A stretch of 64,000 nt of DNA from an uncultured Paenibacillaceae bacterium (GTDB taxonomy: Bacteria; Bacillota; Bacilli; Paenibacillales; K13): the NCBI GenBank assembly GCA_913056365.1, contig CAJXLT010000001.1, forward strand, positions 372,001-436,000, written 5' to 3'. This document shows positions 6,380-23,503 of the stretch, piece by piece. Every line of letters starts with the position of its first letter. Position 1 is the stretch's first letter. Position numbers and translations under genes: made by a program. The notes beneath the pieces are model-generated. The model was given only the letters and a program-made list of their open reading frames with translations, was not told the DNA's origin and did no database searches.

Positions 6380-6577
6380 GCGGAAGAACCCGCACCGGGC
6401 TTCCTGCGATAGTGTCCGATGGGACATGGAAAGCCTGTGAGGCAGATGTTCTTTCATATTGGCTAACATTCGTTGATTTGTGCAGTGTTTTGTCAGGCAC
6501 CTGCATTATACAATAAAAGGTAGCATTCAGGCTGCGCTTATTCGATGACTGACTATTATTGGAGGAGGCATGGCAAG

Positions 6578-8158: not shown

Positions 8159-8168
8159 GCATTCCCTG

Positions 8169-8228
8169 AGTGATTCCTCCTTCGATCCGACGAATTCTTC
8201 CTATGCGGATTGGGAACGTGTATTTTTC
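8169..8228 (+). pseudogene. Fossil fragment of a CBM3 C-terminus
   Basis: Translated in the frame of 8169, this reads SDSSFDPTNSSYADWERVFF. The CBM3 modules of the three full-length enzymes here end in near-identical text (for example SYDPTKTAYSDWDRVTLY). The match stops abruptly upstream, 10 bp after the BtrH-like stop, and there is no start or ribosome site. A CBM3-bearing hydrolase probably once ended here and was deleted or replaced, leaving about 20 codons. Confidence 0.7.
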
Positions 8229-8245
8229 TCTCTATGTCTCAATAT

Positions 8246-8287
8246 ACTAAGTTTTTTACAGTGCAAACTAAGTTTACTCTGGTCCAA
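8246..8287 (+). promoter_or_regulatory. Two 21-bp direct repeats upstream of the GH11 gene
   Basis: ACTAAGTTT occurs at 8246 and again at 8267, each followed about 8 bp later by GTGCAA or GTCCAA. The exact 21-bp period (two helical turns) is typical of AraC-family binding sites. Related ACTAA(A/T)TTTTT elements lie upstream of the other polysaccharidase genes in the window. Binding by the YesN regulator is an inference. Confidence 0.5.
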
Positions 8288-8316
8288 TAGTATAACAGGC
8301 TCTGATAAAATAAAAA

Positions 8317-8330
8317 TGTAACCGCTTACA
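8317..8330 (+). promoter_or_regulatory. cre site upstream of the GH11 xylanase gene
   Basis: TGTAACCGCTTACA fits the CcpA consensus TGNAANCGNWNNCA at every fixed position. It lies about 97 bp before the xylanase start, consistent with glucose repression. Confidence 0.75.
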
Positions 8331-8426
8331 ATTTAACAAGAGGAAAGGGGGGATCATGCAGCCTGTTAAGGGCTACACATCCAGACAAGACGGAATAGCA
8401 CTTGAATTCAAAAGGAGGAATGGAAA

Positions 8427-9512
8427 ATGAAACAAAGAAGATTGAAGTTTTGTCTCGCGATTTTGCTATGTCTGGCACTGGCAATTCCTGCTTCAAGCGC
8501 TTATGCGCAAACGGTTACCTCTAACCAAACGGGCACGCATGGCGGCTATGATTATGAATACTGGAAGGATAGCGGCAACGGGACGATGGTGCTCGGCAAT
8601 GGCGGTACATTCACCGCAGAATGGAACAATATTAACAATATCTTGTTCCGGAAGGGCAAGAGGTTCAATGAGACACAGACACATCAGCAAATTGGCAATA
8701 TCTCCATCGACTACGGCGCCAATTATCAGCCAAACGGCAATTCGTATTTGACTGTTTATGGCTGGACGGTTGATCCGCTCGTGGAATACTATATTGTCGA
8801 AAGCTGGGGAAGCTGGCGTCCGCCAGGTGCATCGTCGAAGGGGACTGTTTCGATTGATGGGGGAACCTATGACATCTATGAGACGACGCGAACGAACCAA
8901 CCTTCCATTAAAGGTACACAAACGTTCCAACAGTATTGGAGTGTTCGGACATCCAAACGTACAAGTGGAACAATCTCTGTAAGCAATCACTTCAGCGCAT
9001 GGGAGAACAGAGGAATGCCGATGGGCAAAATGTATGAAGTAGCGCTTACGGTAGAAGGCTACCAGAGCAGCGGCAGTGCTAACGTATACAGCAATACGTT
9101 AACGATTGGCGGAGGCGGTAACGATGGCGGAGGCAACAACGGCGGAGGCAACGCAACTAGAGTAGAAGCAGAGAGCATGAGCAAGAGCGGTCAGTACACC
9201 GGGAATATCGGCTCGCCATTCAACGGTGTTGCCCTGTACGCCAACAATGACAAGATCAGCTACAACCAATACTTTGCAAGCGGTACGCATAGCTTTTCGC
9301 TTCGCGGCGCTTCGAATAACAACAATATGGCTAGGGTCGACTTACGAATCGGCGGACAGTATAAGGGTACTTTCTATTATGGAGGAAGTTATCCTGCGGT
9401 CTATACGATCAACAATGTGAGCCATGGAACCGGCAATCAGCTAGTAGAGCTAATCGTTACAGCTGACAACGGGCAGTGGGATGCGTTCGTTGATTATTTG
9501 GAAATCAATTAA
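8427..9512 (+). CDS. Secreted endo-1,4-beta-xylanase, GH11 + CBM36
   Basis: 361 residues. Signal peptide about 1-27 (cut near AYA-Q). The GH11 jelly-roll domain spans about 30-228, with nucleophile Glu120 in PLVEYYIVE and acid/base Glu210 in [11 protein letters not shown] Gly/Asn linker leads to a CBM36-type module (about 244-361, from [12 protein letters not shown] to [11 protein letters not shown]), a calcium-dependent xylan binder known from P. polymyxa. It cuts internal xylan bonds outside the cell. AAAAGGAGG precedes the ATG. A cre and paired direct repeats lie upstream, implying repression by glucose and control by an activator. Confidence 0.96.
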
Positions 9513-9644: not shown

Positions 9645-9875
9645 GCCTGCGATCCGAGTAAATTTCATAATAACAACATGTACAGCATGAAATTGACTCA
9701 AATCTGCAGGCTTCCCCTCCTCAATCTGTCCGATAGTGGCAAATTCCTGCGGATATACATCCTTTTGAAGCTCAGACCGCCTAAACTAGCCATTTTCCAA
9801 AAACAAAGCTGCAGATTCGCAGGCATTTCGGGAAATCGTCTGTTCTGTATGCGCTAAGCCTGCACAATCGCAGGA
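9645..9875. repeat. Interspersed repeat, copy 1 (partner of the 54764-55330 array)
   Basis: On the minus strand, 9875 to 9700 aligns with 54859-55039, sharing blocks such as CCCGAAATGCCTGCGAAT and GCTTCAAAAGGATGTATA. On the plus strand, 9645-9672 (TGCCTGCGATCCGAGT, then ATTTCATAAT) matches 54767-54797. The unit is built from a module close to TGCCTGCGAATGTGCATC and its reverse complement, so folded RNA or a protein-bound palindrome is possible. The reading frame at 9624-9857 is made of this repeat and is not a gene. This fills the gap between the xylanase and the transporter. Confidence 0.8.
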
Positions 9876-9915
9876 ATTTTCCATGGCAAGTGTTCATTCT
9901 CACAATGTTACATCT

Positions 9916-11127
9916 TCAGTGCAATTCGGCATATTCCCTATCAGGAAACAACCTGTTCAGCCATTCAGAGCATACAGCTACAACTACGATCAAGAGAAGC
10001 ACAGCTATTGGCAAGATGCCGATCGTAGAGTACGATGCAATATAGCCAATGAACGGAGGCAATACGGCGCTTCCTGTGAAGGCTGCGGCCATTTGGTAGC
10101 CAATGATCTTCTGTGCTCGTCTCTTGCCGAAGCGTACGGGTGTTTCATGAAGCATACAAGGGAAGATTGGCGCATAGCCCAACCCGATAATAATGAAGCC
10201 AGCAAGTGAGTAGCTATCCGGCAACGGTAACAGCAACAGTAATGCCCCGGCCACTGATAGGCTCAGACCACCGCGTATGATGCTCCGATTGCTCAGCCTC
10301 ATGGTCACAAATCCGGATAGAAATCGACCGACTGCAATTCCAGCATAGAACAACGAAACCCAGCGTGCAGCAACACTTACGTCCATCTCCTTCACATTGA
10401 CGAGGAAGCTGGCTCCCCATAATCCAACAGCTGTCTCAGCTCCGCAATAGAGCAGGAAGGAGGCAAGGGCAAGCTTCGTACCTGTCCGCTGTCGAGGCGC
10501 AGGCACATCTGCTAGGAATGGATCTTCACTTCCAGTACTGCGCGTTGCTGCGTTGTCCTCTGCCACACGATGGACGTGGGATACACGACTCCATACAGGC
10601 AGTGAGATGAATAGAACGAGGACCAAGGCAAATTGGATACAAGCAATCGCCGCATAACCTTGTCTCCATTCATGCTGTTCCGTAATGAAGGATGCAGTAA
10701 TAATCGGCCCGAGCGTCGCGCCAACGCCCCATAAGCAATGCAGCCAGTTCATATGGCTCGCTTTGTAATGCGCAGCAACATAATTGTTCAAGCTTGCGTC
10801 TACAGCACCTGCACCCAAGCCCAACAGAATTGCACCTGGCAATAGCCACAAGTAGGAAGGGGCAGCAGCAAATCCGAGCAGCGCACAGGCAGTCAGTAAG
10901 GTGCTGACCGTAGTCACGTGACCGGTTTGGAACCGTCTCAGTATATATCCGCTAGCCAAGCTGGAGGCAATCGTGCCTGCTGTAATGGTCATATATAATA
11001 AGCCAGCTGACTCGAGCGGTGCGTGCAAATCCGGCTGCATAGCAGGCCATACCGCGCCAAGCAATGAATCGGGTAAGCCCAGGCTGATGAACGCCAAATA
11101 TATAATGAGCAGAAGCAAGGTAGTCAA
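9916..11127 (-). CDS. MFS transporter
   Basis: 403 residues from TTG at 11127, with about 12 membrane helices in two halves and a charged central loop (about residues 190-220). Typical MFS text includes SGYILRRFQTGHV after helix 2 and GLGYAPIFPCMLHE in helix 10. An in-frame ATG at 11175 is unlikely, because a TATAAT box lies only 6 bp before it and the codons for YEGE are an AAGGAG ribosome site. It stands alone between the xylanase and the esterase and faces the opposite way. Sugar export or import is possible; the substrate cannot be told. Confidence 0.8.
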   Translation of the reverse strand: MTTLLLLIIYLAFISLGLPDSLLGAVWPAMQPDLHAPLESAGLLYMTITAGTIASSLASGYILRRFQTGHVTTVSTLLTACALLGFAAAPSYLWLLPGAILLGLGAGAVDASLNNYVAAHYKASHMNWLHCLWGVGATLGPIITASFITEQHEWRQGYAAIACIQFALVLVLFISLPVWSRVSHVHRVAEDNAATRSTGSEDPFLADVPAPRQRTGTKLALASFLLYCGAETAVGLWGASFLVNVKEMDVSVAARWVSLFYAGIAVGRFLSGFVTMRLSNRSIIRGGLSLSVAGALLLLLPLPDSYSLAGFIIIGLGYAPIFPCMLHETPVRFGKRRAQKIIGYQMAAAFTGSAVLPPFIGYIASYSTIGILPIAVLLLIVVVAVCSEWLNRLFPDREYAELH

Positions 11128-11377: not shown

Positions 11378-11461
11378 TCATAAATGAATAAGGAGGTGAA
11401 CAGCTGCATCCCAACTAGAACGAACACAATACATTCTGTAGAATACCAAGGAGGTAGGATG

Positions 11462-13171
11462 ATGTTACGAAGATTCAAATGGATAAGTTTATTCAGTGCG
11501 CTCGTACTGCTCGGTTGTTTGCTGTTGCCGGCGTCATTGACAACGCAGCCAGCTCACGCGTCACCGCCAGGAGTAACGCCAGGCACACTCTCTCAGGTAT
11601 CGTCGTTCGGGAACAATCCGAGCGGTCTGAACATGTACATCTATGAGCCGAGTAATCTGGCTGCGAACCCAGCCTTGCTCGTAGCTGTACATTATTGCTC
11701 AGGTTCAGCATCAGCGATGTACAATGGCTACGCTCGCGATTACGTCACGGCAGCTGAACAGTATGGGTATGTCATCGTTTTTCCAGAGTCTACACATAGC
11801 CAATACAGCAACTGCTTCGACGTGTGGAGCCCGGATGCGCTCACTCGCGGAGGGGGCAGCGATCCAGTCGGGATCATGTCGATGGTGTCGTGGACACGAG
11901 CGAATTACAACATTGACAGCAGTCGGATATACGCAATGGGCGCATCCTCCGGTGCGATGATGACCAACGTCCTGCTAGCTTCGTATCCTGATGTGTTCGC
12001 GGCGGGCACTTCATTCATGGGTGTGCCTGCCACTTGCTTCGCTACTGGTAGCGCGACGAATTGGTGGAACAGCCAGTGTGCGAACGGTCAGCTCACACAA
12101 TCCGCACAGCAGTGGGGTGACGCTGCCCGCGCGATGTATCCGGGCTACACGGGATCCTATCCGCGCATGCAGCTCTGGCATGGCACTGCTGACAGTACGC
12201 TAAGTTACAATAACTTCGGCGAGGCTGTGAAGCAGTGGACCAACTTGCACGGACTCTCTACTGCCCCGGCTATGACGGACAGCCCGCAGTGGAATTGGAC
12301 ACGAACTCGCTACGGTGGCACCTCAACCGAGCCGCCAGTCGAAGCAATAAGCGTACAAGGCGTGGGGCATTCTATTCCCCAGTCGGGCATGGTCGCTTAC
12401 TCGATCGACTTCCTCGGCTTGGACAATGGGGGAGGCGGGGGACCGACAGTGCCGGCTGTCCCGACTGGATTGACAGCTACAGCGGGTGATGGCAGTGTGT
12501 CGCTTAGTTGGTCAGCTTCATCAGGTGCCGACAGCTATATTGTACAGCGAGCGCAGACTAGCGGAGGACCGTATACGACGATTGCCGCGAACGTAACGAC
12601 GACGAGTTATGCGGATTCGGGTCTGACGAACGGCACGACGTATTATTATGTTATCCGTGCATCCAATAGCGCTGGCACCAGTGCGGATTCCGCACAAACG
12701 AGCGCTACACCGCAGAGCAATGGGAATGGCGGCGGTGGCTCGGGAGATTTGGTTGTGCAATACAGAGCGGGAGATACGAATGCTGCAGACAACCAGATTA
12801 AGCCGCACTTGAATGTGAAGAATACTGGCACTAGCGCAGTAGATTTGAACGATCTTACACTTCGTTATTACTTCAGCAAGGATGGCAGTCAAGCTATGAA
12901 CGCTTGGATCGATTGGGCGCAGATCGGCGGCAGCAATATTGCCACTGCCTTCACGAATGATTATGTGGAACTGAGTTTTGCAACGGGTGCCGGAAGTATT
13001 CAGCCAGGAAGTCAGACAGGGGATATCCAGTTAAGGATGTCGAAGGCAGATTGGTCCAATTTCGATGAAACGAACGACTACTCCTATGATCCGACGAAGA
13101 CAGCTTATTCGGATTGGGACCGTGTCACGCTCTATCAGAATGGCACATTAGTATGGGGCATTGAGCCATAG
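11462..13171 (+). CDS. Secreted polysaccharide esterase, CE1/PHB-depolymerase family + FN3 + CBM3
   Basis: 569 residues from the ATG at 11462, 7 bp after GGAGG (the ATG at 11459 is possible; the longer frame from 11384 is not needed). Signal peptide to about residue 33. The alpha/beta-hydrolase domain (about 34-320) has nucleophile Ser162 in MGASSG, Asp244 in HGTAD and His303 in GVGHS. FN3 covers about 331-416 and a CBM3 cellulose-binding module about 431-569. This family removes acetyl or feruloyl groups from xylan, opening it to xylanases. Neighbouring xylanases and the CBM3 favour that role over polyester degradation, which cannot be ruled out. Confidence 0.9.
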   Translation: MLRRFKWISLFSALVLLGCLLLPASLTTQPAHASPPGVTPGTLSQVSSFGNNPSGLNMYIYEPSNLAANPALLVAVHYCSGSASAMYNGYARDYVTAAEQYGYVIVFPESTHSQYSNCFDVWSPDALTRGGGSDPVGIMSMVSWTRANYNIDSSRIYAMGASSGAMMTNVLLASYPDVFAAGTSFMGVPATCFATGSATNWWNSQCANGQLTQSAQQWGDAARAMYPGYTGSYPRMQLWHGTADSTLSYNNFGEAVKQWTNLHGLSTAPAMTDSPQWNWTRTRYGGTSTEPPVEAISVQGVGHSIPQSGMVAYSIDFLGLDNGGGGGPTVPAVPTGLTATAGDGSVSLSWSASSGADSYIVQRAQTSGGPYTTIAANVTTTSYADSGLTNGTTYYYVIRASNSAGTSADSAQTSATPQSNGNGGGGSGDLVVQYRAGDTNAADNQIKPHLNVKNTGTSAVDLNDLTLRYYFSKDGSQAMNAWIDWAQIGGSNIATAFTNDYVELSFATGAGSIQPGSQTGDIQLRMSKADWSNFDETNDYSYDPTKTAYSDWDRVTLYQNGTLVWGIEP

Positions 13172-13238: not shown

Positions 13239-15392
13239 TTAAGGTTCCATACCCCAAATTAGCTGGTCATTATGGTATAAGGTGACTTGCTCCCAATCTG
13301 CGAAGGAAGTTTTCGCAGGGTCGAATGAATAGTCATTGGACTCATCGAAGTTGGACCAGTCACTCTTGGCCATACGCAGCTGAATATCTCCGGATTGTCC
13401 TCCAGCGGGAATCGATCCAGCGTTAATACAGAAGCTAAGCTCTACATAAGAATCTGTTACCGTTCGGTGAATATTGGCGCCGCCAATAGCTGCCCAATCG
13501 ATCCAGCTGTTCACCTCCGCCGAACTATCCTTGGAGAAGTAGTAGCGGAGCTTTAGATCACTTAGTTCAACCGCACTCGTGCCATTGTTGATAATGTTGA
13601 AATACGGCTTGATCTGATTGTCAGTCGCATTCGTATCAGCTGCTTTGTACTGAACTGTCAGGTCACCAGTAGGTGTTGGGTCTGGATTGTCGTCGGAAGC
13701 TACACCTACGACATTGCTGCCGCTCTTCGTGATCGTGTAAGTGACGATCTCGCCGCTCCAAAAGTGGAAGGTCAAGTGCACTTCTCCATCCTGAACTTCG
13801 TTGAAGAATTCCGGGAGCACCTCGATTTCATTGGATGCATAGGAAGGAGAGAAAGCATAGCCAAACTCCTTGTATGATGTCCAATTTTGCGGTCCGGCAA
13901 TGCTTCCGTCCGCATAGACGGCCTCCATCGTGGCGAGGCTGTCGCCGTGGAAGGAAGTCGGAATGGCGAATTCCTCCGTCGTACCTGTAGTATCTTGCAT
14001 CACAGGGGGAACATGGACGACGACTCGGAAGCGCCAATCAGCACCGCTGTCGAAAGCTGCGGTAATGACAGCATTCGTGCCTAGCTGCGTTGAATTGGAC
14101 CAGCTGGACAACAGGTCAGACTTGAAGGTCAATATGTTGCCATTCAGCTCATAATCGGTGCCGCTCTGCAGGCTTATCCCATTAACGCTTAGAGATACAA
14201 GCTGATTACCATTCAAGTTCAGTGCAACGGAAACGTCGGACGCCATGCTGCTGCGCTGCAAGTGAATGAGATCGGTCTCCGCTGTAGCCGAACGACCGTC
14301 CCAGCTTGCTTGCATCATCTCGTACAATTCGGGATCATTCCACTCGTAGGACGTGCGATTGAAGTGCTGGCCATTGTCCCATACCATGTGCGTAATTTGC
14401 TTATCTTGCACATAGTGAATCAAGAATTCGAAGAACTTCAGCTTCTCGCCCTGTTCGATGACACCGGTATGCTTATCGAAGCCGAGCAAGCCGTATTCGC
14501 CAAGAATAACCGGAATGCCATTGGCAGTGAACGTATCGTATACACGATCGAAGGTTTGAATAATATCGTTCCTCGTATCATCCTCGAAGTGTGTGTAACC
14601 GGCAATGTTCACACTGAACGGCCAGAAGCCGTAATAGTGCACAGTGGCAATCAGATTCGGATCGTTGAGCTGAACGATCGTGTCATAGAGCTCATCGAGG
14701 TTCTCTTGGGCGGTCGCTGTCTCTACTGTTGGCAGCACTAGGGGACGCACATCGTTATTACCTCCAGATGCCCGCACAATTTGATGGAAGGAAGTGTTCA
14801 GTTGATACAGCAGTTCGAAGTGCTCGGGAGTCACGCTTCCCCAACCGTCAGTGAATCGCGGTTCATTGATGCTTTCGAACATCAGATTGGTCGAATGATG
14901 TTTGAAGTGATCAGCGATTTGTGTCCAACCGGCATTATAGCGGGCTAGCACATTCGAAGGGTCGGTGTCCATCTGGTTAACCCAGAGCCACGAATCGTGA
15001 TGCATGTTAATCATGACATATAGGTTGGCGTCTAATGCCCAATCGACTACTTCTTCTATACGATCGAGGAAAGCGGGGTCTATCGTATAGTTCGGTGCGC
15101 TGCCGATTCGATGATCCCATGTGATAGGGATGCGAATACTCTTGTAGCCTTGAGCGGCAATTTCATCAATGAAGGCTTGCGTCACTGTCGGGTTACCCCA
15201 CGCGGTCTCATCACCGCCGGTGGCATCGAACGTGTTGCCGAGGTTCCAGCCTGGCTGCATCGCTTCAACATATGCTTCAATATCCGTGACTGCAGCTGTC
15301 GGTTCTGCTCCCGCAGCAGGGGCAAACATAGCGACTAACAAGGTCAGGGCGAGCAACAGGGAATAAATGGATTTACTTCTTTGTGTCATCAT
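13239..15392 (-). CDS. Secreted GH5 endo-beta-glucanase + X2 + CBM46 + CBM3
   Basis: 717 residues from ATG at 15392, preceded by AAAGGAG; the longer frame to 15410 would translate that site. Signal peptide about 1-29 (cut near AGA-E). The GH5 domain, closest to subfamily 4, spans about 38-370, with acid/base Glu177 in ESINEPRF and nucleophile Glu299 in VILGEYG. Then come an X2/Ig-like module (about 372-465), a CBM46 (about 470-570) and a CBM3 (about 580-717). GH5-Ig-CBM46 is known from Bacillus Cel5B-type enzymes active on cellulose mixed-linkage glucan and xyloglucan. It faces the esterase and has its own cre. Confidence 0.94.
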   Translation of the reverse strand: MMTQRSKSIYSLLLALTLLVAMFAPAAGAEPTAAVTDIEAYVEAMQPGWNLGNTFDATGGDETAWGNPTVTQAFIDEIAAQGYKSIRIPITWDHRIGSAPNYTIDPAFLDRIEEVVDWALDANLYVMINMHHDSWLWVNQMDTDPSNVLARYNAGWTQIADHFKHHSTNLMFESINEPRFTDGWGSVTPEHFELLYQLNTSFHQIVRASGGNNDVRPLVLPTVETATAQENLDELYDTIVQLNDPNLIATVHYYGFWPFSVNIAGYTHFEDDTRNDIIQTFDRVYDTFTANGIPVILGEYGLLGFDKHTGVIEQGEKLKFFEFLIHYVQDKQITHMVWDNGQHFNRTSYEWNDPELYEMMQASWDGRSATAETDLIHLQRSSMASDVSVALNLNGNQLVSLSVNGISLQSGTDYELNGNILTFKSDLLSSWSNSTQLGTNAVITAAFDSGADWRFRVVVHVPPVMQDTTGTTEEFAIPTSFHGDSLATMEAVYADGSIAGPQNWTSYKEFGYAFSPSYASNEIEVLPEFFNEVQDGEVHLTFHFWSGEIVTYTITKSGSNVVGVASDDNPDPTPTGDLTVQYKAADTNATDNQIKPYFNIINNGTSAVELSDLKLRYYFSKDSSAEVNSWIDWAAIGGANIHRTVTDSYVELSFCINAGSIPAGGQSGDIQLRMAKSDWSNFDESNDYSFDPAKTSFADWEQVTLYHNDQLIWGMEP

Positions 15393-15456
15393 ATCATCTC
15401 CTTTATACATTGTGATGGTGTCAAGCTAGAACAATTCCACCTCCTAGCAAGAAGTT

Positions 15457-15519
15457 TGAAAGCGCATACAACCCTACTGTAATTGAGCTTCACTAAGTTG
15501 TAAACTCCAAAAATTAGTG
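15457..15519 (-). promoter_or_regulatory. cre and ACTAA element upstream of the GH5 gene
   Basis: TGAAAGCGCATACA (15457-15470) matches the cre consensus at every fixed base. On the gene strand CACTAATTTTTGGAG (15519-15505) resembles CACTAAATTTTTAAAG before the GH10 gene. CACTAA and TTAGTG at 15491 and 15514 also form a 6-bp inverted repeat. Confidence 0.65.
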
Positions 15520-15562
15520 TCCATACATGGGGGAATAAAGTAAAATTACTATATGAAGTAAA

Positions 15563-16576
15563 CTATGATTTTTGTGCGGTTTCCTGTACTTTTGTCTGAT
15601 TCTTCTTCTTCTTCAGAAAGCCTTTGTGAATTTTCTCATATCCGGCCGTACTGAATGGACACACTTGAATGCATTTTGCGCAGCCGAAATTAGCGGAGAA
15701 GTAGGGCACACATTTCGTATAGTCGATGCAAGTAGCATCCCCATGCTCATTGCTCTGCGGCTCCGGCAGGATGGCGCTGGCCGGACAGCTGCGAACACAT
15801 TTTCGACAGTATTGGCAAAAATCTCGCACCCAGAGATGCGGATTGTCCGTCTCGACAGGGAAATTGTCAATATTGGTAAAGATCGTGCTAATTCTGACCC
15901 GCGCTCCAGCCTGTGGAGTCAGGAGCAGACCATGGTAGCCAATGGCGCCGAGCCCGGCCATTTCGGCAAGCGCGACATAGTCCATCTGACCTCCAAGCGC
16001 TGTGCTTGGATAGGCAGAGTAGCCCAACTCCCGCAAATGCTTGCTCAATGCATTGGAGATTGCGGCAAGATTGCCGTAGCCTTTATTCACCTCCAGGAAG
16101 CAATCGAAGCTCGGAGCTGTTTGAATAGGCTCATTGTCCATCTCTACTGTGAAAATGAGCGCATGGCGGTACGGAATCGATTTCTCCTTGAAGATTTGCT
16201 TTTGCGGGATATCCCGTATAAATTTCATATCAACAGCACCCATAGATTGGGCTAGCTGCTTCAACTCTGCAAACAATCCGTCGGAAGCATGCTCGACTGT
16301 AGGATAGACCGGTTTGTTGTACATACGCTTGCCCTTCCACATTCTGCTGAACAGCTTGCTCATCGCGGGAGTGAGTCGAATGGACTGCTTCAAGGTCAAG
16401 TTTCGCAAGGATGTCTCGCGCTCCGGAATACGGGGAGCGAAGGATCGACGTGGTTTGGATTGGCTGTCAGCATGGATCAAACCAGGGAACGATTTAGGCT
16501 TCTTCTCCAAGTAATCAATCATCTCGTCCAGACGGCTCTCCATCGCTGGTTGGGTTTTGTCTTTTCGCTGATGCAT
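15563..16576 (-). CDS. 4Fe-4S reductase, QueG/reductive-dehalogenase-like
   Basis: 337 residues, soluble, no signal peptide. The C-terminal part carries two ferredoxin-type clusters: CQYCRKCVRSCP and the motif set CIDYTKC ... CAKCIQVCP. Upstream text (MDYVALAEMAGLGAIGYHGLLLTP) resembles the cobamide-binding core of epoxyqueuosine reductase and reductive dehalogenases. It is longer at the N-terminus than QueG and lacks a neighbouring anchor subunit, so neither function is certain. It is divergent from a TetR gene; that intergenic region holds two identical TAATGATCACA boxes, one on the -35 of this gene, so the TetR protein probably represses it. Confidence 0.75.
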   Translation of the reverse strand: MHQRKDKTQPAMESRLDEMIDYLEKKPKSFPGLIHADSQSKPRRSFAPRIPERETSLRNLTLKQSIRLTPAMSKLFSRMWKGKRMYNKPVYPTVEHASDGLFAELKQLAQSMGAVDMKFIRDIPQKQIFKEKSIPYRHALIFTVEMDNEPIQTAPSFDCFLEVNKGYGNLAAISNALSKHLRELGYSAYPSTALGGQMDYVALAEMAGLGAIGYHGLLLTPQAGARVRISTIFTNIDNFPVETDNPHLWVRDFCQYCRKCVRSCPASAILPEPQSNEHGDATCIDYTKCVPYFSANFGCAKCIQVCPFSTAGYEKIHKGFLKKKKNQTKVQETAQKS

Positions 16577-16594
16577 GGACGTGACACCTCACTT

Positions 16595-16667
16595 TTGAAT
16601 TAGTTAATGAACATCGTGTATAGTAATGATCACAGTGTATATTATAGACGCTCCACTAATGATCACA
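16595..16667. promoter_or_regulatory. Divergent promoters with two TetR operator candidates
   Basis: Rightward: TTGAAT (16595-16600), 18 bp, TATAGT (16619-16624). Leftward: TATAAT (plus-strand 16641-16646) with a TTGTGA-like -35, 16 bp away. TAATGATCACA occurs at 16624-16634, covering both predicted start points, and at 16657-16667, covering the leftward -35. Identical 11-mers in these places fit autorepression by TetR and repression of the reductase. Confidence 0.75.
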
Positions 16668-16741
16668 ATCTGCAATGATGAAGCAGATGTCCATTACTAG
16701 ACACAGAGAGCCTCGAATGTTCAATAGGAGGGAAAAAAATT

Positions 16742-17353
16742 ATGGAACGATCACCTGACCGACGTGCACGCCGAACGAAACGAATGCTTCGGGATGCACT
16801 TACAGAATTGATAGAAGAGAAGGGGGTAGAGGCCGTTACAATCAAGGACTTAGCCGATAGGGCAGATATTAGCCGCGGCACGTTTTATATTCATTATCAA
16901 GATAAGTACGATCTGCTGGAACAGAGCGAGCACGAATTGCTTATCGGTGTCGAACGAGTATTGAGTACGGTAGATAAGCTGGATGCCGGTACGGCCTTGT
17001 TGTATGTAAACCGGAATCAACCGTTTCCATTAATTCTGCGGCTGGCGGAATACGTATTGCAGCATGCGAAATTACTGCGCGCCATCTTGGGACCGAAGGG
17101 GAATCCTTCCTTTCATATGCGGTTCAAGCAAGTATTGGAACGAAACTTGATTTTACATCTCGACTATTTGTGGCAAAAAGGCGAGTTTATCGTCCCTAAG
17201 GCTTATTTGATCGCATATGTCATCTCTGCAGTGCTCGGTGTCATGCAATACTGGCTGGAATATGGGCAGGAGCAATCTGTTGACGAGATTGCGCTGATTT
17301 TGTCCAAAGCGACTATATTGGGACCCGGATATGTGGTAGGAATGAAGGGGTGA
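16742..17353 (+). CDS. TetR/AcrR family transcriptional regulator
   Basis: 203 residues with a good GGAGGG ribosome site. The N-terminal HTH reads LTELIEEKGVEAVTIKDLAD, then ISRGTFYIHYQDKYDLL, the standard TetR recognition helix. The C-terminal ligand-binding half is not recognised further. Two identical TAATGATCACA boxes lie on its own promoter and a related GTGATCAC (17448-17455) lies before the C39 exporter, so it probably controls the reductase, itself and the graspetide genes. The inducer could be the peptide, an intermediate or a chemical stress; not shown. Confidence 0.92.
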   Translation: MERSPDRRARRTKRMLRDALTELIEEKGVEAVTIKDLADRADISRGTFYIHYQDKYDLLEQSEHELLIGVERVLSTVDKLDAGTALLYVNRNQPFPLILRLAEYVLQHAKLLRAILGPKGNPSFHMRFKQVLERNLILHLDYLWQKGEFIVPKAYLIAYVISAVLGVMQYWLEYGQEQSVDEIALILSKATILGPGYVVGMKG

Positions 17354-17447
17354 AAGGAGAAAACCAGCAGAATCCGATGTAGATGATGCCATGCCAGTAT
17401 GCTAGTTGTATGACCGATTTGGCAGTTTATTGTGGCCATAGGTCACG

Positions 17448-17472
17448 GTGATCACGGTAAGTATCACTCCAT
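17448..17472 (+). promoter_or_regulatory. TetR-box-like site upstream of the graspetide exporter
   Basis: GTGATCAC (17448-17455) shares the TGATCAC core with the two boxes in front of the TetR gene, and GTAAGTATCAC follows. The 280 bp between the TetR stop and the exporter start otherwise show only short repeats (CATGAAGAATGACATGATG region) and no clear -35/-10 pair. Confidence 0.5.
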
Positions 17473-17634
17473 CAGTCATGAAGAATGACATGATGATAGT
17501 GCTTATGTATCAATTTGTTAGGATCGACAAATTCAGAGATAAATCGTCAAAGGAATTTGTCCAATCTGAGCGAATATGCCTTGTATGTCATTCAAGCTGA
17601 ATGTTCAAGCCAACAGACGGCAGGTGAAATACTT

Positions 17635-19845
17635 ATGAAGCAACGCTTCGCTCAACGACATCTCGTACGCCAGCAGGATACGACAGACTGTGGACCAGCT
17701 TGCATAGCTACAATATTGTCCATGTTTGGCGTGCATACATCGCTGTCGCAGCTGCGGGAATTGGCGTGTACGGATACCGAAGGAACGAACCTGCTTGGAT
17801 TGACCAAGGCGGCTGCTCATTATGACTTCCAAGCGAAGGCGGTGCGTATACCTTCAAGTGATCTAGCGGAGGCTCCCGTCCCGTGTGTAGTCCATACTGA
17901 AGTGCGCACAGCTCAGCCGCACTATCAGGTGTTGTATAAGGTAGAACAGGATGCTGTTCATCTTGCTTGTCCGGATCAAGGCTTGATCCGCATGACTAAG
18001 GATGCGTTCCATGCACAGTGGAGCGGTATACTGCTGTTGCTGTCGCCTAACGGTGAAGTGCGAGCTCAAGTGCGTAGACCAGGCAAAGTGGCAAGGCTTC
18101 TGCACTTGCTGCTGCCTCATCGGAGGACGATCGCGGCAATCTTTGGCCTTTCCCTGCTATACACGCTTATCGGAATTGTAACCGCTTTCTACTATCAATA
18201 TTTGTTGGACGAGCTAGTTCCCAATCGGCAGTTGTCCCTGTTGCACGCATTGTCTATTGCACTAGTTTCCATCTATGTCGTGCAAGTGATCTTAAGTGCC
18301 ATTCGCACACAGTGGTTGCTTCGCATTGGCAAGGAACTAGACGATACCTTGCAGCGCAAGTTGTATGAGCATCTGCTAGATTTGCCTGCCAGTTTTTTCG
18401 CTCGAAGGAAGGCTGGGGAGATCGCGTCACGTTTTATGGATGCGTCCAAGGTGAGGGAAGCATTGGCCAATGTATCGCTTACGGTGTTTATCGATGTGCT
18501 GCTCGTATTAATCGGCGGATGGATGCTGTACCGGCAAAGCGCCTTCTTATTTCTTATTACGATAAGTGTGATACCCTGCTACGCAGTGCTGATGGGGATC
18601 TCTCATCGTTATTTGGAGCAGGCCAACAGGAAGACGATGGAGCACTACGCACAGCTGCAGGCTTATGTAACGGATTCGATTCGCGGTATGGAGACGTTGA
18701 AGGCGTACCATGCAGAGCAGCATGCCGCGCGTGAAGCAGGGACAAGGCTTGATCATGTACTGCAAGCGGTATGGAAGCAAGGGAGCTTGCTCAATGCGCA
18801 GTCTTCTGTCAAGCTGCTGCTGCAGTTTCTAAGTGGAGGGATTATTCTGTGGCTCGGCGCGCGAGAGGTATTGGTGGGCGATATGAGCATAGGAGAGCTG
18901 CTTACATATCAAGCGCTGCTCGTCTATTTCCTGCAGCCAATCCAAAATCTTGTCAACCTGCATCCGAATATGACGACTGCTCTCGTTGCTGGAGAACGGA
19001 TGTGGGACATGATGGACTTGGAGAAGGAAGGTGCAAGCTGCAAGGGCGAAGATCGTCAAGCTGCTTGTACGGAACCGACTGATTGGAGAGGTCCGGTGTC
19101 CTTCGAGCAAGTGTCCTTCCGATATGATACGAAGCCGCTCTTGTTGCACAACTTCACCTTGACCATACAGGCAGGTGAGAAGATTGCTTTCGTCGGGGAA
19201 AGCGGTTCTGGCAAGTCAACTCTCGTCAAGCTATTGCTTCATCTGTATCCGCTTGAGCAAGGGGATATCTTCATACAAGGCATGTCAATTAGGAAGCTTG
19301 CAACCGGTCAATTACGAAGTCGGATCGCTTATGTTTCGCAGGAGCTGGCATTCTTCCATGGCACAGTGCTCGATAACTTGTGTTTGGGACGCGACATCCC
19401 GCAAGACCGTGTGCAAGAGGTTTGTCGCGGTTGTCAGCTTGAGGAGGTGGTCGGAGCAATGCCTCGCGCTTATCATACTTGGTTGGAAGAAGGGGCGAAT
19501 AACTTGTCATCCGGTGAGAAGCAACGGCTTGCGATTGCCCGCGCCTTGCTCGGCGATCCCGATGTGCTTATCCTGGACGAAGCGACAAGCCATCTGGATG
19601 TGCAGCTGGAGGAAGCGGTATTGACGTATATACAGACGAATTGTACAGATAAAACGATCATCTATGTGGCACACCGGTTGCATACGATTGTTGACAGTGA
19701 TCGTATTATCGTTATGGATCATGGAACAGCATCAGAGATGGGTACACATGCACAGCTGCTTCAAGTCGGAGGACGCTATGCAGCGATGTGGGACAAGCAG
19801 CTGCCGCGCGAAGCGGTATTAACAGGACACGTGGCAGACAGCTGA
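17635..19845 (+). CDS. C39 peptidase-containing ABC transporter, graspetide leader cleavage and export
   Basis: 736 residues from ATG at 17635, 8 bp after AGGTGA; the extended frame from TTG at 17515 is unsupported. The C39 peptidase domain (1-135) has Cys19 in TTDCGPAC, His96 in PHYQVLYKV and Asp114 in ACPDQG, so the catalytic set is complete. About six membrane helices (160-450) follow. The ATPase domain (about 490-725) has GESGSGKST, the signature LSSGEKQRL and VLILDEATSHLD. Such PCAT-type exporters cut after Gly-Gly and export the core. The next gene encodes a peptide with exactly that leader end (LSVDELTETSGG). Confidence 0.96.
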   Translation: MKQRFAQRHLVRQQDTTDCGPACIATILSMFGVHTSLSQLRELACTDTEGTNLLGLTKAAAHYDFQAKAVRIPSSDLAEAPVPCVVHTEVRTAQPHYQVLYKVEQDAVHLACPDQGLIRMTKDAFHAQWSGILLLLSPNGEVRAQVRRPGKVARLLHLLLPHRRTIAAIFGLSLLYTLIGIVTAFYYQYLLDELVPNRQLSLLHALSIALVSIYVVQVILSAIRTQWLLRIGKELDDTLQRKLYEHLLDLPASFFARRKAGEIASRFMDASKVREALANVSLTVFIDVLLVLIGGWMLYRQSAFLFLITISVIPCYAVLMGISHRYLEQANRKTMEHYAQLQAYVTDSIRGMETLKAYHAEQHAAREAGTRLDHVLQAVWKQGSLLNAQSSVKLLLQFLSGGIILWLGAREVLVGDMSIGELLTYQALLVYFLQPIQNLVNLHPNMTTALVAGERMWDMMDLEKEGASCKGEDRQAACTEPTDWRGPVSFEQVSFRYDTKPLLLHNFTLTIQAGEKIAFVGESGSGKSTLVKLLLHLYPLEQGDIFIQGMSIRKLATGQLRSRIAYVSQELAFFHGTVLDNLCLGRDIPQDRVQEVCRGCQLEEVVGAMPRAYHTWLEEGANNLSSGEKQRLAIARALLGDPDVLILDEATSHLDVQLEEAVLTYIQTNCTDKTIIYVAHRLHTIVDSDRIIVMDHGTASEMGTHAQLLQVGGRYAAMWDKQLPREAVLTGHVADS

Positions 19846-19914
19846 AGAGGACGAAACGATAAAGGCGGTAATCGGTGTGATAGTCGAGGCTGCGAGAGTC
19901 GATTTAGGATGATG

Positions 19915-19941
19915 TTGATTCTCATACGCCTAGTCTATAAA
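19915..19941 (+). promoter_or_regulatory. Possible separate promoter for the precursor gene
   Basis: TTGATT (19915-19920) and TATAAA (19936-19941) are 15 bp apart, shorter than ideal. It lies in the 126 bp between the exporter and precursor genes and could allow the precursor to be made in excess. Confidence 0.3.
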
Positions 19942-19971
19942 TCAACATATGTTCAAGAAGGAGGTGATATG

Positions 19972-20229
19972 ATGAAGATGAAGCTGGATGAGCTGCAGAT
20001 GAAGACGTTATTGGAGAAATTCCAAGCGAATGCGACGCATGTCGAGCTGTCTGTTGATGAATTGACTGAGACAAGCGGCGGCAGCAAGTGGGATGCTACA
20101 ACATTGGCAATTGGCGAAGAAGATGTAGCCACGACGCTTGCTATCGGGGAAGAAGGCGATCCTGTCTATACGACGATGGCAGTAGGCGAAGAGGATGGGG
20201 CAACTACTATGGCAATCGGCGAAGAATAA
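19972..20229 (+). CDS. Graspetide precursor, plesiocin-type, four TTxxxxEE repeats
   Basis: 85 residues from ATG at 19972, 7 bp after an AAGGAGG site; the longer frame from 19909 would translate that site as QEGGD. Leader 1-37 ends LSVDELTETSGG, the double-glycine signal cut by C39 peptidases. Core 38-85 holds four repeats at 43-50, 54-61, 67-74 and 78-85: TTLAIGEE twice, TTMAVGEE, TTMAIGEE, the last ending at the stop. Spacers are DVA, GDPVY and DGA. In plesiocin-type graspetides each TTxxxxEE receives two Thr-Glu side-chain esters. The repeats use different codons, so selection acts on protein. The adjacent ATP-grasp ligase and exporter fit. Target unknown; protease inhibition is common in this class. 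Confidence 0.93.
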   Translation: MKMKLDELQMKTLLEKFQANATHVELSVDELTETSGGSKWDATTLAIGEEDVATTLAIGEEGDPVYTTMAVGEEDGATTMAIGEE

Positions 20230-20242
20230 GCATCGGCACAGG

Positions 20243-20266
20243 TGGGACAGGCAGAAGCCTGTCCCA
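20243..20266 (+). terminator. Hairpin between precursor and ligase, partial terminator or stabiliser
   Basis: TGGGACAGGC and GCCTGTCCCA form a perfect 10-bp stem with an AGAA loop, starting 14 bp after the precursor stop. There is no T-run, so read-through to the ligase is expected. Such a hairpin can hold precursor mRNA above enzyme mRNA. Confidence 0.65.
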
Positions 20267-20350
20267 TTCATGTCCTTATTGAAATGTGCTGTAATACGAA
20301 TGCCGTTGCAGCCAACAACAATGTACAGCGTATGTATGGGAGGGAATTCC

Positions 20351-21511
20351 ATGACGATTATACTGATGAATCCAGTGAATGACATTCACTGCCAGTTCAT
20401 GCTGGCTCAGCTTCACCAGCGGGGTATTCCTTACATGGAACTCGGCTCGCCACTGGATCATGACTACGGCATGCACAACGGTCAGCTGCTCTATGACGGC
20501 AAACCGCTGCCGCAAGTTCAGGCCGTCTATTTCCGCGGAGTGCTGTCGCATAACCCCGATCCGCTAGATCAAGAGGATGCAAGGAAGCGATTGACTGATA
20601 ACATGCAATTTGCCGCAAGAGTCGAGGTTGTGCAAAGCTGGCTGCACATCATGGCTGAATCTGGCGTGACTATCCTGAACCAGCCTGGCAATCGATCCAA
20701 GGTTGTGCAGCTGCATACGCTTCAGCAAGCGGGTATTCCGATTCCAGCCACGTGTATAACCTCGTCACCTGAAGTTGCTAGGCAGTTTATCCAGCAGGTT
20801 GGCAAGGCTGTTATCAAGCCGGTTCGCGGAGGAAGCTATTGCCGCAAGGCAGACGCTGCACTGCTGAGTGAGCTGGATCGGATTACGGCAGAACCAGTCA
20901 TTGTGCAGGAGGAAATACCGGGAGAGGATGTGCGTGTCAATCTATTAGATGGAAAGGTCATCTCGGCACATATTATTCATACTGCGGAGGGGACGCTCGA
21001 TTACCGAACCGATCCTAATTATCACGCTGGGAAGTCTGAATATGAATTAATTACACTGCCTGAGGAAGCGGCGGCAATATGCAGGCAAGCAGCGTATTGT
21101 CTTGGATTGCGCTTCACCGGCATAGATCTTCGGCGATATGGCGACAGCTATGTGCTGCTGGAATGCAACAGCATGCCGGCATACATGGACGTTGAGCTTA
21201 AGACACAAGTACCGATAACCGCAGCTTTGATCGAAGCGTTGTTGAAGGCAAAGCCGGCGGCATTATCCCGATCGTCTGGCCCCGCATTCGATACAACGGC
21301 CAAACCTGCTGCGCGAAGAGGGGATACATTATTTGCTTACGATGATGTCGTACGAGCGTGGCAGCAACAGTCGGCAAGGCGGCAGAAGCGACAGCTGCTG
21401 CCGTTGAATGACGAACAAATTGCGCAGTGGCAGGAACAGACAGGCAAGCGATTCGCATTTATGGAAGTGGAGATGAATCGGGGCAACGCTCAGGTCATTC
21501 GTGTATTTTAA
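20351..21511 (+). CDS. ATP-grasp ligase, graspetide ester-forming (MvdD/PsnB-like)
   Basis: 386 residues from ATG at 20351 after GGGAGGG; the frame extends upstream only through untranslated sequence. RimK-like ATP-grasp layout: NRSKVVQLHTLQQAGIP (114-130), Lys156 in VIKPVRGGSY, hinge IVQEEIPGEDVRV (184-196), metal ligands Asp259 in FTGIDL and Glu271/Asn273 in LLECNSMPAY. These enzymes activate Glu or Asp side chains as acyl phosphates; those paired with TTxxxxEE peptides join Thr hydroxyls to Glu. Residues 285-386, rich in Gln/Arg and ending MEVEMNRGNAQVIRVF, extend past the fold and may bind the leader. It is 121 bp after the precursor, with a hairpin between. Confidence 0.93.
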   Translation: MTIILMNPVNDIHCQFMLAQLHQRGIPYMELGSPLDHDYGMHNGQLLYDGKPLPQVQAVYFRGVLSHNPDPLDQEDARKRLTDNMQFAARVEVVQSWLHIMAESGVTILNQPGNRSKVVQLHTLQQAGIPIPATCITSSPEVARQFIQQVGKAVIKPVRGGSYCRKADAALLSELDRITAEPVIVQEEIPGEDVRVNLLDGKVISAHIIHTAEGTLDYRTDPNYHAGKSEYELITLPEEAAAICRQAAYCLGLRFTGIDLRRYGDSYVLLECNSMPAYMDVELKTQVPITAALIEALLKAKPAALSRSSGPAFDTTAKPAARRGDTLFAYDDVVRAWQQQSARRQKRQLLPLNDEQIAQWQEQTGKRFAFMEVEMNRGNAQVIRVF

Positions 21512-21602: not shown

Positions 21603-21790
21603 GAAGATAGGCTTGCAGCTTCTTCAGAACGTGATCCAGCAATTTAGCAAGGGAGGGGCTGGTGATCGGACTTGAGGAGTGAACAGCAGGCTTCATCATA
21701 GGCGCAAAGGGGATGATCAAAGTTTAATCCATTGCCAAGACACGAACAACTCGTACTAGGCTGAAGAAGAATATGAAGGAGGGAATATTC

Positions 21791-23503
21791 ATGTTAAGGT
21801 CAAAACTGGTTAAGGTTTTAGCTACAGCTTCGTTGGTCGGAACGTTGTTCACCGGGGCGGTATCGCCGAGCGCAGATGCGGCTCTGGCAGACGGAGAAAG
21901 CAAGTTTCTGGGGAATGTGATCGGGGCAAGCGGCATCCCGTCACACTTCGCAACGTACTGGAACCAGGTGACACCGGAAAATGCGACAAAATGGGGCTCT
22001 GTCGAATCATCGCGTGACAATTACAATTGGAGCGGCGCAGACCAAGCCTACAATTATGCGAATACACAAGGCTTCCCATTCCGCTTCCATACGCTCGTAT
22101 GGGGCAGTCAGGAGCCGGGCTGGGTATCTGGATTGTCAGCCGCGGAGCAAAGAGCCGAAGTGGAGGAGTGGATTGAGGATGCAGGACAACGGTTTGGCGG
22201 CTCAGACTATATTGACGTAGTGAATGAACCGCTGCATGCGCCTCCAAGCTATAAGAATGCGATTGGCGGTGACGGAGCGACAGGCTGGGATTGGGTCATC
22301 TGGTCCTTCGAGCAAGCGCGTCAAGCATTCCCTAATTCTGAGCTGCATATTAATGACTATGGCATCATCGGCGATCCGAATGCGACGGATCAGTATGTGC
22401 AAATTATCAACTTGTTGAAGGACAGAGGGCTAATTGACGGCATCGGTATTCAAGCCCATCACTTCAATATGGACAATGTAACGATCAGCACGATGAATCA
22501 GGTGCTGAGCAAGCTAACGGCGACAGGCTTGCCGATCTACGTAACGGAGCTAGACATGACGGGTGATGACAATACACAATTGCAGCGTTACCAACAGAAA
22601 TTCCCAGTTCTCTGGGAACATCCGAATGTTGCAGGTGTGACCCTGTGGGGGTATATTGTCGGCCAAACATGGAGAGACGGTACAGGCCTAATCACAAGCT
22701 CAGGTCAAGAACGCCCTGCTCTACAGTGGTTGAAGCAATATTTCGAGAACAGTGGCGGTCCGGTAGTTCCTTCCACCCCGACTGGATTGTCGGCGAATGC
22801 TGGGGACGGTCAAGTATCATTGAACTGGAATGCTTCCAGCGGTTCGGTTGATCAATATACCGTCAAGCGGTCGGTATCTAACGGCGGACCTTATGCGAAT
22901 ATTGGGACTACAAGCAGCACTAGTTATACGGATAACAGCGTGTCCAACGGCACGACTTACTACTATGTCGTAAGTGCCTCCAATAGTACGGGTTCCAGCA
23001 ACAACTCCTCACAGGTTAGTGCGACACCTACTAGCGGCGGCGGAGGCCCGACTGGTGATCTCGTCTTGCAATATCGCGCAGCAGACACGAATATTTCCGA
23101 CAATCAGATCAAGCCGCATTTCAACATCAAGAACGAAGGAAATAGCGCGGTTGACTTGAGCTCGCTCAAGATCCGTTATTACTTCACGAAGGACAGCAGC
23201 CAGAATATGAATGCCTGGATTGATTGGGCGCAGGTTGGCGGAAGCAATATTCAGACGACGTTCTCAAGTGCGTCTGGAACGAACACGGATACGTATGTAG
23301 AGCTCAGCTTCTCAGCTGGCGCAGGTTCTATTCAGTCTAATGGTCAGTCTGGCGATATTCAGCTGCGCATGTCCAAGACAGATTGGTCCAACTTCAACGA
23401 ATCGAACGACTATTCCTTCGATTCGACCAAAACATCTTATACTGATTGGGATCGCGTAACCTTGTACCAGAACGGTACGCTCGTATGGGGAACGGCTCCT
23501 TAA
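21791..23503 (+). CDS. Secreted endo-1,4-beta-xylanase, GH10 + FN3 + CBM3
   Basis: 570 residues from ATG at 21791; the frame from 21773 would translate the AAGGAGGG site. Signal peptide about 1-29 (cut near ADA-A). The GH10 barrel spans about 35-320, with acid/base Glu146 in VVNEPLHAPP and nucleophile Glu253 in IYVTELDMTGDD. FN3 covers about 328-420 and CBM3 about 427-570. GH10 enzymes yield short and decorated xylo-oligosaccharides that Lpl-type importers take up. Its CBM3 and FN3 closely resemble those of the CE1 esterase. The graspetide genes separate it from the other hydrolases. Confidence 0.96.
   Translation: MLRSKLVKVLATASLVGTLFTGAVSPSADAALADGESKFLGNVIGASGIPSHFATYWNQVTPENATKWGSVESSRDNYNWSGADQAYNYANTQGFPFRFHTLVWGSQEPGWVSGLSAAEQRAEVEEWIEDAGQRFGGSDYIDVVNEPLHAPPSYKNAIGGDGATGWDWVIWSFEQARQAFPNSELHINDYGIIGDPNATDQYVQIINLLKDRGLIDGIGIQAHHFNMDNVTISTMNQVLSKLTATGLPIYVTELDMTGDDNTQLQRYQQKFPVLWEHPNVAGVTLWGYIVGQTWRDGTGLITSSGQERPALQWLKQYFENSGGPVVPSTPTGLSANAGDGQVSLNWNASSGSVDQYTVKRSVSNGGPYANIGTTSSTSYTDNSVSNGTTYYYVVSASNSTGSSNNSSQVSATPTSGGGGPTGDLVLQYRAADTNISDNQIKPHFNIKNEGNSAVDLSSLKIRYYFTKDSSQNMNAWIDWAQVGGSNIQTTFSSASGTNTDTYVELSFSAGAGSIQSNGQSGDIQLRMSKTDWSNFNESNDYSFDSTKTSYTDWDRVTLYQNGTLVWGTAP

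Follow-up and report, generated by a model that had tools for sequence, protein, structure and literature searches.

What peptide is made from a short double-glycine precursor and its neighbouring ATP-grasp ligase in an uncultured Paenibacillaceae bacterium, and what does the ligase do with a leader unlike that of its relatives? Both questions are raised by a gene cluster in a 64,000-nucleotide stretch of contig CAJXLT010000001.1, called here the window. A first-pass annotation had proposed a plesiocin-type graspetide cluster with its own C39 exporter and a TetR-type regulator. The genes, the motifs and the ATP-grasp ligase of that proposal stand; the regulator as a conserved part of the cluster does not. 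As predicted from sequence, the cluster belongs with the plesiocin-type (group 2) graspetides, a known kind. Two things had been missed: the leader differs from the LFIxELE-like leader of other TTxxxxEE loci, and the ligase carries an extra C-terminal domain.

Firstly, we examined the four genes, whose grouping on the + strand is confirmed by gene calls and domain matches. These are a TetR/AcrR-type regulator of doubtful membership (16742..17353; TetR_N E 4.9e-13, TetR_C_8 E 3.5e-15), a 736-aa C39 peptidase-ATP-binding cassette (ABC) exporter (17635..19845; Peptidase_C39 E 3.5e-34, ABC_membrane E 1.2e-48, ABC_tran E 2.1e-31), a precursor that translates to 85 aa (19972..20229) and a 386-aa ATP-grasp ligase (20351..21511; RimK-like ATP-grasp E 1.6e-14). 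As in graspetide loci, an ATP-grasp ligase adjoins a short precursor gene. The precursor start at 19972 lies 7 bases 3' of a GGAGG site, and the sister species G001, the one other genome of the same family, starts at the same residue. A 37-aa leader (19972..20082) with glycines at residues 36-37 precedes a core of 48 aa and a stop (20083..20229). The core holds four repeats, in order TTLAIGEE, TTLAIGEE, TTMAVGEE and TTMAIGEE (precursor residues 43-50, 54-61, 67-74 and 78-85; positions 20098-20121, 20131-20154, 20170-20193 and 20203-20226, + strand). The TTxxxxEE repeat motif marks group 2 (plesiocin-type) graspetides. The double-glycine precursor with four such repeats goes beyond chance: G001 has retained both the repeats and the order exporter-precursor-ligase. 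The precursor matched nothing in Pfam and NCBIfam at E <= 0.1, and its structural model is poor (mean predicted local distance difference test score, pLDDT, 47), with a sole helix at residues 7-18. In a comparison of the window with G001, the core has a ratio of nonsynonymous to synonymous substitution rates (dN/dS) of 0.026, the leader one of 0.13, the ligase 0.07 and the exporter 0.10. These values are rough, as synonymous sites approach or exceed saturation (core dS 3.3). In a closer pair, Paenibacillus ihumii and P. bouchesdurhonensis, the values are 0.28 (core), 0.04 (leader) and 0.09 (ligase); the core is more variable there than between the window and G001 and still constrained (<1).

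Secondly, we compared the ligase with enzymes of solved structure. Its catalytic part (aa 1-300; 20351..21250) matches PsnB, the plesiocin ligase, over aa 3-298 (7drm; 112.7 bits, E 2.3e-31), ahead of PruB (9bou; 54.9 bits), the best RimK (46.8 bits) and MdnB (34.4 bits). By score the ligase thus falls with PsnB; grouping with RimK or glutathione ligases is the outcome that the first-pass annotation had named beforehand as counting against it. The best structural match of the predicted ligase model is likewise PsnB (Z 24.8 over 283 residues, root-mean-square deviation 3.1). That the best solved relative is PsnB classes the cluster as a predicted plesiocin-type (group 2) graspetide cluster. Residues K156, Q186, R195, D259, E271 and N273, which we take to have catalytic roles, are common to the eight aligned ligases of the window's kind (type I, below) and PsnB. 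Compared with type II ligases (below), the loop ahead of the ATP-binding lysine is shorter in type I, the hairpin that follows DYR is longer, and the C-terminus extends by about 85 residues, the final 60 of them conserved.

Thirdly, we searched for related loci. At E <= 1e-12 the ligase was found in 13 of 392 genomes of the order and 4 of 398 of the class; at E <= 1e-30 it was found in 10 of 394 and 4 of 104 genomes of two families, and in one of 299 of the phylum, the window's own. The genome sets overlap, and together they yield 20 genomes with the ligase, which fall into two kinds. Ten are of type I, with a double-glycine leader in every genome (G000, G001, G267, G294, G319, G326, G334, G374, G830 and G067; nine leaders aligned), and ten of type II, with a [LM]FIx[EQ]LE leader (G007, G026, G149, G225, G411, G423, G459, G820, G838 and G843). 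Type I genomes all belong to the window's order, and include P. ihumii (G319), P. woosongensis (G294), P. kobensis (G374) and P. xylaniclasticus (G830); a scan of named genomes also gave P. bouchesdurhonensis. Three type II genomes lie outside the order, within the same class. The LFIxELE-like leader is absent from the window precursor and from the other type I precursors. The leaders of the two types are unrelated and their cores similar, and the missing leader would not withdraw group 2 membership, which core and ligase indicate. A ligase tree with 19 rows was built from eight ligases of each type, PsnB, and one protein each from an archaeal plasmid and a deltaproteobacterium. Type I forms one group in it (support 100/99) and so does type II; a long-branch warning concerns the three ungrouped rows. 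In a plasmid collection, 38 records match the ligase, none covering 80% of the query and all below 60% identity. A scan of genome contigs with a single protein query returned no loci, and an alignment-based scan returned seven, five of them type I.

Some copies depart from the common form. G026 carries just one TTxxxxEE. In G067 the first repeat reads TSMLVGEE and a frameshift, due either to decay or to sequencing error, breaks the ligase into two overlapping frames (L026:8572-9884). In P. xylaniclasticus (L037:7368-10349), three double-glycine TTxxxxEE precursors surround one ligase and a broken ligase remnant (9687-10016), which suggests duplication of the precursor-ligase unit. A deltaproteobacterial metagenome-assembled genome (L039:7153-7692, 7725-8699) encodes a tail-less ligase with the type I-like motifs DYRTDPNYH and YLDIE, and the open reading frame (ORF) beside it has TTAGPAGEED and TTLPAGGAEE repeats, possibly of another repeat graspetide.

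The exporter is the sole Peptidase_C39 match in the genome at E <= 0.001. It shows the motif QQDTTDCGPAC, and it has the N-terminal C39 domain with catalytic Cys, the transmembrane domain and the ATPase of a peptidase-containing ABC transporter (PCAT). Its top NCBIfam model is TIGR01193 (bacteriocin type; 575.7 bits, cut-off 523.85), and TIGR03796 (NHLM) stays under its cut-off. A C39-ABC gene is present in 8 of the 10 type I stretches and in none of seven type II stretches (4.7-19.5 kb), three further type II loci being too short to judge. Three type II stretches do contain short ABC-protein matches to the exporter (40-71 bits), in ORFs of 224-313 aa that lack the C39 motif, and a few look-alikes of that motif were discounted as short or unrelated frames. 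In the window and G001 the exporter gene is immediately followed by the precursor gene. One gene of 460-474 aa separates the two in five closely related genomes of the Paenibacillus family (L020-L024); it was scanned in two copies, is HlyD-like in both (E 4.5e-16 and 1.3e-16) and is missing from the window. In G067 the exporter lies about 6 kb away on the opposite strand. The first-pass annotation had called a peptidase-exporter of its own unusual for a Bacillota member. Plesiocin itself originates from a Bacillus. The pairing is not unusual, since an excerpt of PMC13097080, which predicts 21,584 graspetides, reports that group 2 co-occurs highly with NHLM-type peptidase transporters. In PMC8939145 (Makarova 2022), part of Table 1 gives a C39 peptidase-ABC transporter the highest weighted frequency (0.19), and a passage of the text states that loci of this kind do not typically encode the C39 peptidase and that roughly half of the precursors carry a GG motif.

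From the genes, motifs, ligase clade, leader dichotomy, extra domain and selection read off the sequence, we infer a chemistry, a cut site, export, inhibition and a role for the domain as follows. The ligase would activate core Glu side chains and close esters to both Thr of every TTxxxxEE repeat. According to an excerpt of PMC12291112, each of the four repeats of plesiocin bears two ester cross-links; the predicted product here would likewise comprise four two-ring hairpins, that is eight esters and a mass change of -144.1 Da. A passage of PMC9576775 reports a group 2 graspetide that gave only one dehydration when expressed elsewhere. The C39 domain of the exporter would cut after Gly36-Gly37 and the 48-residue product would be pumped out. 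Outside the cell it would most likely inhibit serine proteases; plesiocin is described in PMC13097080, in the part available, as a potent serine-protease inhibitor whose strength rises with repeat number. In the type I branch, the LFIxELE-like leader would have been exchanged for a double-glycine leader, with leader recognition or activation taken over by the extra ligase domain. We are fairly confident of this overall reading, a plesiocin-type group 2 system of a type I branch with a double-glycine leader and a tailed ligase, which would act through esterification, C39 cleavage, export and, likely, protease inhibition.

The extra domain, or tail (ligase aa 326-386 and stop; 21326..21511), sits beyond the PsnB-matched part and occurs only in type I ligases. 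It is present in all ten type I genomes (in G067, on the second half of the split gene) and absent from all nine type II ligases whose C-terminus is complete, the tenth being cut by a contig end. A search with the tail alone in the 392 genomes of the order retrieved nine genomes at E < 1e-27, all with type I ligases; matches in G011, G109 and G370 (E 0.002-0.006), in unrelated or non-coding frames, were judged to be chance. Between the window and G001 the tail is 66% identical and the linker ahead of it 52%, and in the Paenibacillus pair dN/dS is 0.05 for the tail and 0.47 for the linker. A conserved tail behind a fast-evolving linker indicates that the tail is under selection. Pfam and NCBIfam gave no match confined to the tail, and one chance-level match extends into it (E 0.044). 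As for a recognition element for ribosomally synthesized and post-translationally modified peptides (RiPPs), the best match in a PDB profile search had E 0.61, with a tail model too weak for structure search.

We asked whether the tail resembles the leader. Leader residues 2-27 align without gaps to ligase residues 349-374 (21395..21472), a likeness that is suggestive only: Leu-Asp-x-x-Gln in the leader faces Leu-Asn-x-x-Gln in the tail and, 15 residues on, Val-Glu-Leu faces Met-Glu-Val. Among 1332 ungapped windows from alignments of the exporters and of both types of ligase, this register comes top, at 11.7 against 2.65 for the next. When leader columns were shuffled in 5000 trials, the score was reached in 0.5% of them anywhere in the ligase and in 0.26% in the tail; shuffling tail positions in single genomes gave p 0.0016-0.047. 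The predicted helices are in register (leader 7-18, tail 354-364), in models too weak for structural proof. Using hhalign, the leader matched the tail alone with P 5.6e-4 (probability 30%) and the whole ligase with P 0.02 (probability 2.4%), in the identical register. In a control over a grid of 86 chunks, each 61 columns long, the chunk placed by hand on the tail (326-386) topped all (17.4, P 0.0022), and grid chunk 316-376, which contains most of the tail, came third of 86 (14.0) behind two overlapping exporter chunks (14.2 and 14.1). These P values need care, since 6 of the 86 grid chunks reach P < 0.05 (316-376 and five overlapping ones, exporter residues 1-121), and all p-values for the likeness are post hoc, the idea having been spotted by eye before testing.

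The reading that we lean towards, by a little, is that the tail is an ordinary accessory domain, one that mediates an oligomer contact or forms a separate leader-binding domain, and that its likeness to the leader is due to chance or to a shared strand-helix-strand pattern. Several observations point this way: the likeness spans only 26 columns with 2-8 identities of 27 per pair, the HMMER match is weak (best E 0.0093 among 8 sequences searched, one of them empty, with 4 of 7 matches in the tail register), both hhalign probabilities are low, and exporter chunks outrank the grid chunk with most of the tail. In addition, leader and tail were not found to co-vary within genomes (of 120 permutations, 100 equal or exceed the score of the true pairing), and the test is post hoc. 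Against it, one gapless register recurs in ungapped scoring and in hhalign with both the tail and the whole ligase, and neither the gap to the next of the 1332 windows nor the single-genome shuffles fit it well. Common descent of leader and tail is possible, the likeness being suggestive. A bolder proposal, which we put forward as a rather unlikely one, is that the tail is a captured copy of the precursor leader. Such a natural built-in leader would activate the ligase itself or pair with the incoming leader, and the precursor, thereby freed, could have traded its recognition leader for one that serves C39 export. In our overall reading, the tail would have taken over leader recognition or activation once the leader had been exchanged.

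We then weighed the group 2 assignment itself, against which several points can be raised. The top NCBIfam model of the ligase, TIGR04187 (ATP-grasp ribosomal peptide maturase), scores 97 bits for a cut-off of 350, a shortfall that may speak against a textbook member. The MFxGF loop of type II ligases and PsnB is replaced by AYMDVE-like residues in type I ligases, so that the type I ring pattern could differ. RimK folds nearly tie with PsnB in the structure search (Z 24.0); being within one Z unit, the two cannot be separated by structure alone, and are by sequence. Confidence in the ligase model is modest (mean pLDDT 72.7; tail 47-68), and the ligase tree, built without RimK or glutathione-synthetase rows, leaves out three of the ten type I genomes and two of the ten of type II (near-copies, split or incomplete genes). 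Finally, P. kobensis and P. xylaniclasticus, both type I, have no C39 motif within 8 kb. The low TIGR04187 score, the changed loop and the RimK near tie would suit an alternative in which type I peptides are not true group 2 graspetides and the ligase forms another linkage on a look-alike core. We consider this improbable: the cores are much alike in the two types (for instance GPIYTT then xAxGEE in both), the six residues listed above are shared by the eight type I ligases and PsnB, and the core is under purifying selection. It is more improbable still that the cluster is silent or decaying debris, an idea that the G067 frameshift and the P. xylaniclasticus remnant might inspire, since the window copy is intact and dN/dS against the sister species is 0.03-0.13 over precursor, ligase and exporter.

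At the collinear locus of G001 (L019), exporter, precursor and ligase lie in this order between glycoside hydrolase (GH) family 5 and GH10 genes and the TetR gene is absent, its best matches in G001 (35% and 28% identical) being on other contigs. The regulator, taken by the first-pass annotation for a part of the cluster, is thus probably not core, and we rejected it as such. Between precursor and ligase genes, a 12-bp hairpin (20241..20268, + strand) lies in a region that folds with z -2.6. Comparable hairpins were found in the other four type I loci folded (5 of 10 in all; z -3.0 to -3.7); the hairpin is strong in all five, and its sequence differs between genera. A terminator scan did not list the window hairpin among its elements. 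As it has no T-run, it is less likely to be a terminator than an RNA stabiliser or a processing site, by which precursor levels would stay above those of the enzyme.

Around the cluster, the window encodes a GH11 xylanase (8427-9512), a polyhydroxybutyrate-type esterase with a carbohydrate-binding module of family 3 (CBM3; 11384-13171), a GH5 cellulase with CBM46 and CBM3 (13239-15410) and a GH10 xylanase with CBM3 (21773-23503). The xylanase island described by the first-pass annotation is there, in that the cluster lies between GH5 and GH10 genes in the window and in G001; this order was seen nowhere beyond the sister species, and a general tie of the peptide to xylan breakdown is not supported. 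GH88 and GDSL-esterase genes (pectin-type breakdown; 14670-16923), about 1.5-3.8 kb beyond the exporter in the Paenibacillus-family type I locus L020, suggest that a looser tie to plant-polymer genes may exist. That the product shields the neighbouring secreted cellulase and xylanase is a speculation. Near the xylanase genes, a protein at 6545-8158 has a marginal match to BtrH_N (butirosin biosynthesis H; E 6.6e-7). A 4Fe-4S protein adjoins the cluster on the - strand (15563-16576) and resembles the reductive dehalogenase and QueG models, under both cut-offs.

At its plainest, the finding extends a class of more than twenty thousand predicted members (excerpt of PMC13097080) by one protease-inhibitor-like peptide. 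Group 2 and its link to peptidase-type exporters were known; what this analysis adds is a type I branch with a double-glycine leader, its own ligase clade and a conserved tail. We found no description of a double-glycine group 2 branch or of the ligase tail in the literature searched, a scope that lay outside the main graspetide surveys and their supplements, where they may have been published earlier. As similar core repeats come with either of two unrelated leaders and with ligases of two clades, one of them bearing the extra conserved domain, two small gene sets would suffice to test how leaders were exchanged in RiPP evolution. A tail that served as a built-in leader might let the ligase cyclise peptides that lack a leader, which would make it a useful biocatalyst, and a natural in-cis leader, if true, would explain how RiPP systems exchange leaders.

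The window cluster resembles plesiocin and PsnB (PDB 7drm-7drp) in its TTxxxxEE repeats and in its single ATP-grasp ligase, for which PsnB is the top match in both sequence and structure. In contrast to the plesiocin/PsnB group, it has a double-glycine leader in place of the LFIxELE-like leader of type II loci, a 60-aa C-terminal domain and an AYMDVE-like loop for MFxGF, and its ligase clade is separate from that of type II. Like the graspetide groups with peptidase-containing transporters reported in part of PMC13097080, group 2 among them, it has an exporter that adjoins precursor and ligase; unlike the NHLM-type transporters mentioned there, this exporter exceeds the cut-off of TIGR01193 and not that of TIGR03796. 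Lastly, passages of PMC13003496 describe RiPP enzymes rendered constitutively active by engineered in-cis fusion of a leader. Provided that the likeness is real, the type I ligase, like these artificial fusions, carries a leader-like stretch covalently on the enzyme; unlike them, it would be a natural, diverged and putative case.

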